NCBI RefSeq assembly: GCF_000426725.1
Contig: NZ_AUFX01000005.1
Location: 62,001-126,000, forward strand
Length of the DNA stretch: 64,000 bases
Direction of reading: 5' to 3'
Source of the DNA: Sporocytophaga myxococcoides DSM 11118
Lineage (GTDB): Bacteria > Bacteroidota > Bacteroidia > Cytophagales > Cytophagaceae
A program made the position numbers and the translations under genes. Shown piece by piece: positions 13,221-18,366 of the stretch. The stretch's first letter is position 1. The number at the start of each line of letters is the position of its first letter. The notes under the pieces were generated by a model, which worked only from the letters and a program-made list of their open reading frames with translations, searched no databases and was not told where the DNA came from.

Positions 13221-14918
13221 ATGGATCCCAAAAAGAAAAGTGTCATCATTCTTGGAGGAGGTATAGGAGGGTTGAGCGCTGCTCATGAATTAATCAACAG
13301 AGGGTTTAATGTTGTAGTGTTTGAATCCAAGGGCATTCCCGGAGGTAAGGCGCGAAGTCTTTCTGTGCTAAACACTGGAACGGATGGCCGGAAAGATCTG
13401 CCAGGGGAACATGGTTTTCGCTTTTTTCCAAGGTTTTACAAGCACATCATTGCTACCATGAAAGAAATTCCTTATGGCGAAAATAAAAATGGTGTAGCTG
13501 ATAATCTGGTAGATACCACACGTATTCAAATGGCAAGATTTGGAAAAGATCCTGTTTTGATGCCGGCCAGGTTTCCCAGATCTCTTGGGGAGTTTATTCA
13601 AATACTTGCAGATGGTTTGGATCTCAACCTTGGTCTTTCTACAGAAGAAAAAGCTCTGTTTGCAAAAAAAGTCTGGCAACTAATGACTAGTTGTAAGGAA
13701 AGAAGAAAGCATGAGTATGAAAGGATCAGCTGGTGGGAGTACCTCGATGCCGATCAACAATCTTCTGCTTATCAGAGTATTTTTGCCAAAGGCCTTACTC
13801 GTACACTGGTGGCGGCAAGGGCTGAAGAGGCAAGTACTAAAACAGGAGGCGATATTTTTATCCAGCTTTTATTTGATGTCGCTAAACCCGGTATTAGTTG
13901 CGACAGAGTATTATGTGGTCCTACCAATGAAGTTTGGATTGATCCCTGGCTTGAAGACCTTAAAAAGAAAGGCGTTGAATACAGATTCAATTCAAAGGTT
14001 CTGAGCATTAATTGTGCTGATAATGCGATTAAAAGTGTTACCATCTCTTGCGAAGGAAAACAGCAGGAGTTTGTCGCAGATTACTACATTTCTGCAGTAC
14101 CTGTAGAAGTAATGGCCAGCTTGCTTAACAATGATCTGGTAAAAATCGATCCTACTTTAAATTATCTTAAAACGCTTAGTCAGTATGTTTCTTGGATGAA
14201 CGGTACTCAGTTCTATCTGAATACCAACATTGAGTCTGTTCCCGGTCATTCAATATATATAGATACACCATGGGCACTTACTTCCATATATCAGTGCCAG
14301 TTCTGGAAGAAATTCAGCATTGCTGAGCATGGTGATGGTAAGGTTAAAGGTATATTATCAGTAGATGTCTCAGATTGGAATACTCCGGGTGTAATTTATA
14401 ATAAGCCTGCTAAAGAATGTACGAAAGAAGAAATCATTAAAGAGATCTGGGAACAGTTAAAAAGAAGTCTGAATGTCAATGGTAATGTAGTTCTTAAAGA
14501 TGACTTTCTGCATTCATCTTTTATCGATCCCGATATTGTCTTTGAGAGTCCTATGCGTAATGAAGAACCTCTGTTGGTCAACTCTACTAATACCTGGGAC
14601 TTGCGACCTTATGCATACACTCAGGTTCCTAATCTGTTCCTTGCATCTGATTATGTGAAAACCAATACGGATCTAGCTACTATGGAAGGTGCAAATGAAG
14701 CTGCCAGAAGGGCTGTCAATAGCATCTTGGATGCTTCAGGAGTAAAGGCTCCTAAGTGCAAAATATGGGATCTGCATGAACCGGCAATATTTGCCATACT
14801 TCGGTGGAGAGACTTGCAGAGGTATAAAAAAGGATTGCCATGGTCGCATCATCAGCCATTTATAATTAAACTACTTCATAAAATAAGGTTCTGGTTCTTT
14901 GAGAAATCAGGACGATAG
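13221..14918 (+). CDS. FAD-dependent desaturase/hydroxysqualene-dehydroxylase-like flavoprotein
   Basis: A 565-residue amine-oxidase/phytoene-desaturase fold enzyme. The Rossmann motif VIILGGGIGGLSAAHELINRG opens the protein (residues 8-28) and is followed by PGGKARS, the second FAD contact. GEHGFRFFPRFYKH (about 61-75) resembles the signature seen in proteins annotated as hydroxysqualene dehydroxylase (COG3349 type). FLASDYVKTNTDLATMEGANEAARRAVNSIL near the end is the C-terminal FAD-binding block. The substrate is probably a polyisoprenoid, by family. The membrane protein encoded 40 bp downstream resembles Pyr4-type terpene cyclases, so the two may act in one isoprenoid pathway. Confidence 0.8.
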   Translation: MDPKKKSVIILGGGIGGLSAAHELINRGFNVVVFESKGIPGGKARSLSVLNTGTDGRKDLPGEHGFRFFPRFYKHIIATMKEIPYGENKNGVADNLVDTTRIQMARFGKDPVLMPARFPRSLGEFIQILADGLDLNLGLSTEEKALFAKKVWQLMTSCKERRKHEYERISWWEYLDADQQSSAYQSIFAKGLTRTLVAARAEEASTKTGGDIFIQLLFDVAKPGISCDRVLCGPTNEVWIDPWLEDLKKKGVEYRFNSKVLSINCADNAIKSVTISCEGKQQEFVADYYISAVPVEVMASLLNNDLVKIDPTLNYLKTLSQYVSWMNGTQFYLNTNIESVPGHSIYIDTPWALTSIYQCQFWKKFSIAEHGDGKVKGILSVDVSDWNTPGVIYNKPAKECTKEEIIKEIWEQLKRSLNVNGNVVLKDDFLHSSFIDPDIVFESPMRNEEPLLVNSTNTWDLRPYAYTQVPNLFLASDYVKTNTDLATMEGANEAARRAVNSILDASGVKAPKCKIWDLHEPAIFAILRWRDLQRYKKGLPWSHHQPFIIKLLHKIRFWFFEKSGR

Positions 14919-14958
14919 CTACATGGATTTTTAATTAACTATTTAATCTTTTATAATT

Positions 14959-15648
14959 ATGGAAAAGCTTTTAAATCTTGAAGTGTATAGTCCTTTAGAC
15001 TTAAGCTTGTTTGGGATATGCTGTATTTTCTGGTTTCTTGTTTACATCATTGTAATTATAAATATCATTAAACATAAAGTAGTAGAGATACCAGTTGCAG
15101 CAGTAGTTGCCAATTTTTCATGGGAGTTGCTTTGGAGCTGGTGCTTTCATACGAACCTGGGAGAGCTCTTTCAATGGGGGTACAGGATATGGTTCTTTAT
15201 GGACATCTTTATCATTTACAGCATTTTTAAATATGGTCATAAGCAGTTTCAGCTTGAGCCATTTAAAAAGCAATCAGTGTTAATTACAACTTTCGGGCTT
15301 GCCTTTTGGATGATAGGTTTGTATTTCCTTATTCCTGAGCATGACACAGATGGCTTTGGTGCCTTTTCTGCTTATCTCATCAACGTTTATATGAGTGCTT
15401 TTTATTGTTATCAGATCATCAGACAACCTGAGTTTGCAATTTCAAATGCAAATGGCTGGTTCAAAATGATTGGTACTGCAGGATGCTCAGCTATGATTTA
15501 CAATCATTTCTGGAACATTCCCGGATATAATGGATTGATGGCTTTATGTGCCATTACTTTATTCCTTGATCTATGGTATGTTTATTTGCAGTATAGCCGA
15601 GTGGGAGTGAGAGATAAAGTGGGCAAGGTGAACTTCATTCCGGCGTGA
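14959..15648 (+). CDS. Seven-helix membrane protein resembling Pyr4-type terpene cyclases
   Basis: A 229-residue protein with about seven transmembrane helices and little else. ANFSWELLWSW (51-61) places Glu56 in an N-F-x-W-E-L motif. LFLDLWYVYLQY (201-212) places Asp204 in the last helix. Pyr4-family membrane cyclases of fungal meroterpenoid pathways are about 240 residues with seven helices, and need a Glu in N-F-A-W-E-L near residue 63 and an Asp near 218. Length, topology and both acidic residues therefore agree. It follows the desaturase-like gene by 40 bp on the same strand. The assignment rests on motif recall. An unrelated seven-helix protein remains possible. Confidence 0.55.
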   Translation: MEKLLNLEVYSPLDLSLFGICCIFWFLVYIIVIINIIKHKVVEIPVAAVVANFSWELLWSWCFHTNLGELFQWGYRIWFFMDIFIIYSIFKYGHKQFQLEPFKKQSVLITTFGLAFWMIGLYFLIPEHDTDGFGAFSAYLINVYMSAFYCYQIIRQPEFAISNANGWFKMIGTAGCSAMIYNHFWNIPGYNGLMALCAITLFLDLWYVYLQYSRVGVRDKVGKVNFIPA

Positions 15649-17475: not shown

Positions 17476-18366
17476 ATGAAGGAAACCCAGACTTTTGATT
17501 ATCAGCAATTTTTAGAAATTCAAAAAGAAAACGCAAGGCTTAAAGAGCATATCACCACTCAGGAGAATATGTTCGGAATGACTCTGCGTAATATGGGTGG
17601 TCTTAATCAGGAGCTCAAGTTTGCCAAAGAAAAAATTAAAGAACAAAATCTTCTTTTAGAAAAGATTGTTGCTGACCGCACAATTGAACTTCTTGCAATC
17701 AATAACCAACTGAATGCCTTGTTATATCGTGCATCTCATGATATGAAAGGACCCGTAAGCACATCTGAAGGACTTCTAAATCTTATTGAACTTACCAATG
17801 ATCAGGAAGAAATAAAGCAAATGTCAAATTTAATGAGACTGACTTTGCGTAAGCTGAGCAAGCTTTTGGATGGCCTTTCATTCCTGGGAAGATTGAAAAC
17901 TGAAAAAAGTATTATTTCCCGAATAAATTTCGATACATTCTTTTCAGAATTTAAAGATAAACTTTACCAAAATCATTCTCACAGATTTCCTGTTATTCAT
18001 GCTCAACTTCCCGAGAACAGAGATTTCAATTCAGATCCGGATATTTTACATGTCATCTTCAGAGAGATATTTGAAAATAGTATTGTTTTCGGAAGAAATG
18101 ATTTGCTTGAAATTACCTTTGTGATGGATATAACACATGACCATATTACTTTTTCAATTACAGATAATGGGTATGGAATTAGAGAGGGTGTCCTTAGTCT
18201 TGTTACAGAAATGTTTTTCAGAGGAAGTGAAAAGTCTGAAGGTAGTGGAATGGGCTTATTCCTAGTACAAAGTGCTGTAGAACATTTGCAGGGAGAACTC
18301 TTTATTTCCAGTGGAGAGAAAAATGGGACAACAGTAAAGATTATTATCCCAAATAGTACTTTCTGA
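17476..18366 (+). CDS. Soluble sensor histidine kinase
   Basis: A 296-residue kinase without signal peptide or membrane helix. A coiled coil (about 5-75) leads to HisKA with phospho-acceptor His88 in RASHDMKGPVSTSEGLL, then HATPase with N box REIFENSIVF, G1 DNGYGIR and G2 GSGMGLFLV. There is no PAS, GAF or receiver domain, so the input must come through the coiled coil or a partner protein. The HATPase and H-box style resemble the other three kinases in this window. No response regulator is nearby. Its leader contains a terminator-like hairpin about 90 nt before the ATG. Confidence 0.92.
   Translation: MKETQTFDYQQFLEIQKENARLKEHITTQENMFGMTLRNMGGLNQELKFAKEKIKEQNLLLEKIVADRTIELLAINNQLNALLYRASHDMKGPVSTSEGLLNLIELTNDQEEIKQMSNLMRLTLRKLSKLLDGLSFLGRLKTEKSIISRINFDTFFSEFKDKLYQNHSHRFPVIHAQLPENRDFNSDPDILHVIFREIFENSIVFGRNDLLEITFVMDITHDHITFSITDNGYGIREGVLSLVTEMFFRGSEKSEGSGMGLFLVQSAVEHLQGELFISSGEKNGTTVKIIIPNSTF

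Follow-up and report, generated by a model that had tools for sequence, protein, structure and literature searches.

A pair of adjacent genes in Sporocytophaga myxococcoides DSM 11118, coding for a flavoprotein and a Pyr4-like terpene cyclase, probably constitutes a membrane-associated unit for the modification of isoprenoids, in which the flavoprotein would perform an oxidation and the cyclase a ring closure. Since operons of oxidase, cyclase and signalling genes are the usual form in the clade of this cyclase, the most likely role of the product is to feed or tune a signalling output. Bacterial Pyr4-like cyclases are already described. The new part is the oxidase-cyclase-sensor context, and no published description of this operon type was found in the open-licence literature. 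To our knowledge, no member of the oxidase-linked cyclase clade has a known activity, substrate or product.

Both genes lie in the window, that is, the whole stretch of 64,000 nucleotides that was analysed. The first (FLAVO; 13221..14918, + strand) encodes a 565-aa FAD-dependent oxidoreductase resembling HpnE and phytoene desaturases, an assignment based on Pfam PF01593, on an NCBIfam HpnE match below its cut-off and on the adjacency to the cyclase. The second (CYC; 14959..15648, + strand) encodes the 229-aa Pyr4-like transmembrane terpene cyclase and begins 40 bp after the first, with the oxidase directly upstream. The two ORFs, their gap, the GEHGFRFFP motif of FLAVO and, in CYC, Glu56 within NFSWEL and Asp204 were all found as the initial annotation had described them. 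The pair is kept in three other genera (CYC 36-41% and FLAVO 51-60% identity), and comparison of the window with its congener L002 gives dN/dS values of about 0.05 (CYC) and about 0.04 (FLAVO). Both genes are under purifying selection, and their retention in other genera together with the low dN/dS indicates that the pairing is not due to chance. The genome carries a single CYC (one by protein search and one by family model), which is 92-93% identical to the CYC of two Sporocytophaga MAGs. In one Sporocytophaga MAG (L003; G003:C9:514296-515991), the FLAVO frame is split near residue 415 and CYC is intact, a case of either true decay or assembly error.

CYC matched a single Pfam family at E up to 1, that of the Pyr4-like transmembrane terpene cyclases (PF25129; 58.7 bits, cut-off 27, E 9.2e-16). 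With a score so far above the cut-off, the Pyr4-like identity first proposed for the 229-aa protein is upheld, and as a prediction from sequence the identification as a cyclase is strong. Trp25, Tyr29, Pro45, Glu56, Asp82, Ser146, Gly172 and Asp204 are invariant across 17 aligned bacterial sequences, which comprise the window, two congeners, twelve other Bacteroidota and two Nostoc plasmids, with identity to the window CYC down to 21%. Glu56 and Asp204, the two acids on which the initial annotation had based the cyclase idea, are thus conserved in all sequences of this set. According to the DmtA1 study (PMC6173783), E60A/Q abolished complementation, so that E60 is essential, variants of Y33 were inactive and D214A gave very little product. 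By motif and spacing, with DmtA1 standing outside the 17-sequence alignment, these residues correspond to Tyr29 (Y33; codon 15043..15045, + strand), Glu56 (E60; 15124..15126, + strand), which is the presumed general acid, and Asp204 of the last helix (D214; 15568..15570, + strand). The Tyr-Glu spacing is 27 in CYC and DmtA1 alike. The codon of Asp82, a residue with no role assigned, is at 15202..15204 (+ strand).

An AlphaFold2 model of CYC from a 3-sequence alignment (window, L002 and L003) consists of seven long helices at low confidence (mean pLDDT 49.8), with Glu56 falling in the second helix and Asp204 in the seventh. In a simple hydropathy scan three helices passed, and a sequence search of solved structures gave no match at E up to 1. 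CYC is similar to the bacterial Pyr4-like cyclases DmtA1, XiaE/XiaH, TylF, GroF and ZigF in its PF25129 membership, its length and its Tyr, Glu and Asp positions.

The tree of 68 CYC proteins, which was midpoint-rooted and has some long branches flagged, showed two groups. The first (48 rows, support 100/99) contains every oxidase-linked row, the window CYC included, and the second (20 rows) has no such oxidase and includes f35 and cyanobacterial sequences. The window CYC is sister to those of L130 and L138 (support 99/97), where the gene order is FLAVO, CYC and a gene for a 1783-aa kinase-type protein. In the 48-row group, 37 of 41 order loci have a signalling gene no more than two genes from CYC, a count that keeps near-identical genomes and takes the window and L002 as positive through a soluble kinase two genes on, versus one of 13 in the other group (Fisher 6e-8).

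FLAVO contains a Rossmann FAD domain and is placed in Amino_oxidase by its Pfam match (PF01593; 4.4e-25). Among the named NCBIfam models, HpnE (TIGR03467) scored highest, with 99.1 bits against a cut-off of 283.05, and 15-cis-phytoene desaturase (TIGR02731) gave 49.5 bits against 569.4. FLAVO belongs to the same FAD-dependent superfamily as these two enzymes and has different neighbours. Its scores fall far below both cut-offs, for which reason any precise reaction is a guess. In a sequence search of solved structures, matches were confined to the FAD-binding N-terminus.

Sixteen plasmid records, from Ruegeria, Streptomyces, Nocardia and haloarchaea, contain homologues of FLAVO with 40-49% identity. 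The gene next to the homologue codes for a polyprenyl synthetase in both Ruegeria plasmids and in all three Streptomyces plasmids viewed (of five records); in Streptomyces it is convergent with the homologue, and an MpaB/DUF2236 oxygenase is also near. Of the eight haloarchaeal records four were viewed, and the annotation around the homologue includes no polyprenyl synthetase in any of them; in the unannotated Nocardia record a search with two polyprenyl synthetases and the Streptomyces oxygenase gave no match. The isoprenoid reading of FLAVO in the initial annotation is thus favoured by the Ruegeria and Streptomyces plasmids, but finds no such neighbour in the haloarchaeal ones. On the Ruegeria plasmids (L035, megaplasmid NZ_CP031947.1, and L205), the homologue and the polyprenyl synthetase are accompanied by a family 1 encapsulin, a DUF3237 protein and a protein with an adenylate/guanylate cyclase domain.

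The family model found CYC in eight of 39 relatives and in 24 of 395 genomes across the phylum, both samples including the window genome. A narrower profile, A2, made for the subfamily of the window CYC, found CYC in 54 of 390 genomes of the order (E up to 1e-10), and FLAVO (E up to 1e-60) was found in 32 of the same 390. The two co-occur in 23 genomes against an expectation of 4.4 (hypergeometric 1.8e-15, with kinship not corrected). They are adjacent in 21 of these 23, and in G717 and G725 they are on different contigs. A survey in other Cytophagales had been recommended at the outset, and it shows the pair recurring across the order. Counting against the reading of the two as a pair, nine of the 32 FLAVO genomes have no CYC.

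In order to describe the gene plan, gene neighbourhoods were taken for 55 of the 59 order-wide CYC matches (the remaining four are the window congeners G001 and G003 and two fragments of G570), 11 FLAVO loci without an adjoining CYC were added and all ORFs were clustered. One locus (L140), whose CYC frame was lost to the overlap filter, enters the oxidase counts and is omitted from the ORF-position counts. FLAVO is located upstream of CYC in 19 of the 55 order loci, an MpaB/Lcp oxygenase (PF09995) takes this upstream place in 18, and a different flavoprotein (c19) is 3′ of CYC in four. A recognised oxidase of these three types is therefore beside CYC in 41 loci, and none is recognised in 14. 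FLAVO and MpaB occur together in none of the 41; MpaB/Lcp belongs to a different Pfam family and none is near the window pair. The gap from oxidase to CYC is at most 42 bp in 34 of 35 measured cases and includes 4-bp overlaps in three, whereas larger negative values are probably artefacts of start choice.

With respect to CYC, the signalling genes (BLAST cluster 0) are the next gene downstream in 33/53 loci and the preceding gene in 0/54, and at two genes' distance they are downstream in 14/52 and upstream in 4/53. As read from the gene tables, 22 of the 27 CYC-bearing genera, from nine families, show the full plan, in which oxidase and CYC are joined by a signalling gene one or two genes downstream of CYC, and in 21 of these 22 the signalling gene is on the CYC strand. 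Outside the plan are the window's own genus, where a convergent gene intervenes, g25, g228 (at a contig end), g256 and g241. The 11 FLAVO loci without an adjoining CYC follow a similar arrangement, with a signalling gene at +1 or +2 in ten.

In the phylum sample, six of the nine CYC loci outside the order and f35 adjoin a signalling gene (L046, L048, L052, L061, L068 and L063, the last with the signalling gene upstream). Two others (L047 and L053) have neighbours that were judged UbiA-like by eye, and the ninth, L067, lies at the end of its contig. Fourteen phylum-sample genomes of f35 carry a Pyr4-like gene; four of these 14 loci were viewed, and in L056 and L059 the gene is, by eye, two genes from a flavoprotein resembling geranylgeranyl reductase. 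At L045:9719-13101, CYC is followed by a TPP-dependent enzyme and a membrane protein of 304 aa, which resembles UbiA by eye but has no Pfam match.

Among 45 of the 47 signalling partners, a set that includes those of FLAVO-only loci and omits the soluble kinases of the window and L002, Pfam scans recognised HATPase_c in 27, SpoIIE in 16, guanylate cyclase in one and 7TMR-DISM in nine. Partners of 400-540 aa are mostly related at their N-terminus, since 26 of 30 fall in one single-linkage BLAST group over the first 230 residues, which form a 6-TM region. The outputs behind this common region are a histidine kinase, SpoIIE or a guanylate cyclase. Across the membrane part, scans of individual partners named no Pfam family.

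A search for the 6-TM domain in 49 genomes of the order (25 with CYC and 24 without) listed 26 matches, one per genome. The 19 strong ones (E 1.6e-36 or lower) are all in CYC genomes and all adjoin CYC or FLAVO, with the exceptions that in G032 a P450 gene intervenes and in G717 the match is beside FLAVO only; this confinement to cassettes is partly by construction, because the profile was built from cassette loci. The seven weaker matches are orphans and include one in G463, which is a CYC genome; in L192 a generic amine-oxidase-like gene is located at a distance of about 2.6 kb. In the 395 genomes of the phylum sample, with up to eight candidates scored per genome, at least 26 matches (E up to 1e-18) occur in 12 genomes, two of which are from the order. 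One of the matches listed (G101) adjoins CYC, and in the short loci around the other 25 a profile search found no CYC, FLAVO, MpaB or DUF6989. The orphans in both samples rule out that the 6-TM domain is exclusive to the cassette, and they indicate that the cassette is linked to one subfamily of a broader sensor family.

The window pair itself has no same-strand signalling gene directly downstream of CYC. A convergent gene for a photolyase-related protein (DPRP, PF04244; 15813-17270, - strand) is placed between the pair and the nearest signalling gene on the 3′ side, the second gene on, which encodes a soluble histidine kinase-like protein with no predicted TM (17476..18366, + strand; HATPase_c PF02518, 1.3e-17) whose membership in the cassette is doubtful. 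The order in L002 is identical, and among the clustered loci the photolyase-related gene cluster is restricted to the window and L002. In the window's genus, neither the 6-TM sensor nor the membrane sensor of the L043/L132 type was found at the thresholds used, the 6-TM search covering G000, one of four congeners. The giant soluble kinase of the sister lineage (L130) was considered as the absent partner of the window pair; it has a 35% relative on another contig of the window genome, but its family is large.

The initial annotation had found no UbiA in the window, and the genome-wide search agrees, as all seven UbiA matches of the genome are on contigs other than that of the window (C3). Two UbiA-family matches about 7 kb apart at G000:C19:65138-73051 possibly belong to a separate prenyl pathway. 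SQS/PSY genes, considered as possible indicators of a squalene or phytoene substrate, were uninformative, as they occur in 42/44 carriers and in 32/35 non-carriers.

The two enzymes are likely to act in sequence on an isoprenoid. FLAVO would oxidise or desaturate an isoprenoid chain made elsewhere in the cell. Glu56 of CYC, aided by Tyr29 and Asp204, would protonate an alkene of the chain with the closure of one or more rings, and the cyclised product would feed or tune the signalling output. We infer the order of the reactions, the isoprenoid nature of the substrate and the coupling of product to sensor; the only hint of a signalling role for the product is the gene order. The cassette may then be understood as a terpenoid-making module tied to signal transduction, possibly through the supply of a ligand. 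Against this, the window's genus has no adjoining membrane sensor and, beyond the order, most occurrences of the 6-TM domain are orphans. A further-reaching version, in which the operons are self-contained terpenoid signalling units where the oxidase and the Pyr4-type cyclase make a cyclic isoprenoid ligand that the neighbouring 6-TM protein senses, is doubtful.

The main rival explanation, doubtful in our estimate, is that the pair is an ordinary fragment of a natural-product pathway, making a meroterpenoid or carotenoid-like secondary metabolite, and that the kinases in the relatives merely regulate its production. Biosynthetic gene clusters can hold cluster-situated two-component regulators. 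The cassettes are similar to these in having a kinase gene next to biosynthetic genes, and behind the partners in L043 and L132 a separate receiver protein is encoded, which is the arrangement of ordinary two-component systems. A bacterial survey (PMC13307353) places the named bacterial Pyr4-like cyclases in meroterpenoid or triterpenoid pathways, and L045, from the same tree group as the window CYC, recalls the zig cluster described there in its by-eye combination of TPP-dependent enzyme and UbiA-like protein. The UbiA matches elsewhere in the window genome also favour such a pathway. On the other hand, dmt and zig have a prenyltransferase in the cluster (PMC6173783, PMC13307353), whereas the window pair lacks a neighbouring UbiA and its relatives have an oxidase and a signalling protein. 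Furthermore, the outputs vary behind a common 6-TM domain and are often a SpoIIE phosphatase and sometimes a guanylate cyclase, which would be unusual as pathway regulators.

It is rather improbable that the pair tailors the membrane by modifying a respiratory quinone or carotenoid, with the neighbouring sensors reading membrane or redox state. CYC is a membrane protein and the frequency of SQS/PSY among carriers indicates that such isoprenoid chains should be available, but these genes are almost equally common in non-carriers, and no quinone or carotenoid gene was recognised by eye beside the cassettes, whose neighbours were scanned in part. That the predicted seven-helix protein lost or never had cyclase activity and is a membrane subunit of the sensor agrees with its tight coupling to signalling genes and with the occurrence of oxidase and sensor without CYC or with DUF6989 in its place, but is very unlikely given that the catalytic positions known from DmtA1 are invariant (n=17) and that an oxidase accompanies CYC in most order loci.

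One clade of cyclases is repeatedly located beside signal-transduction genes, which suggests a further use of terpene cyclisation. The survey of bacterial Pyr4-like cyclases collected 1107 candidates and retained 264 for their nearby terpenoid genes, 69% of the 264 being from Actinomycetota (PMC13307353). A filter of this kind may have let the signalling-linked clade escape. The cassettes thus offer a concrete gene set for seeking bacterial terpenoid signals and their receptors. If the self-contained signalling unit were true, bacteria would have a counterpart of isoprenoid hormone systems in which the genes of producer and receptor are side by side, and the 6-TM input domain would be reused with kinase, phosphatase or nucleotide-cyclase outputs.

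The cassettes also provide a lead on the uncharacterised DUF6989 (PF22497), which is membrane-like by eye. It replaces CYC between FLAVO and the sensor in L182 and L184, and in L157 it is located between MpaB and CYC. Kinship of DUF6989 with CYC was considered, and a profile comparison of the two gave no match. In one genome, FLAVO and DUF6989 are fused in a single protein of 884 aa (L186:8000-10654).
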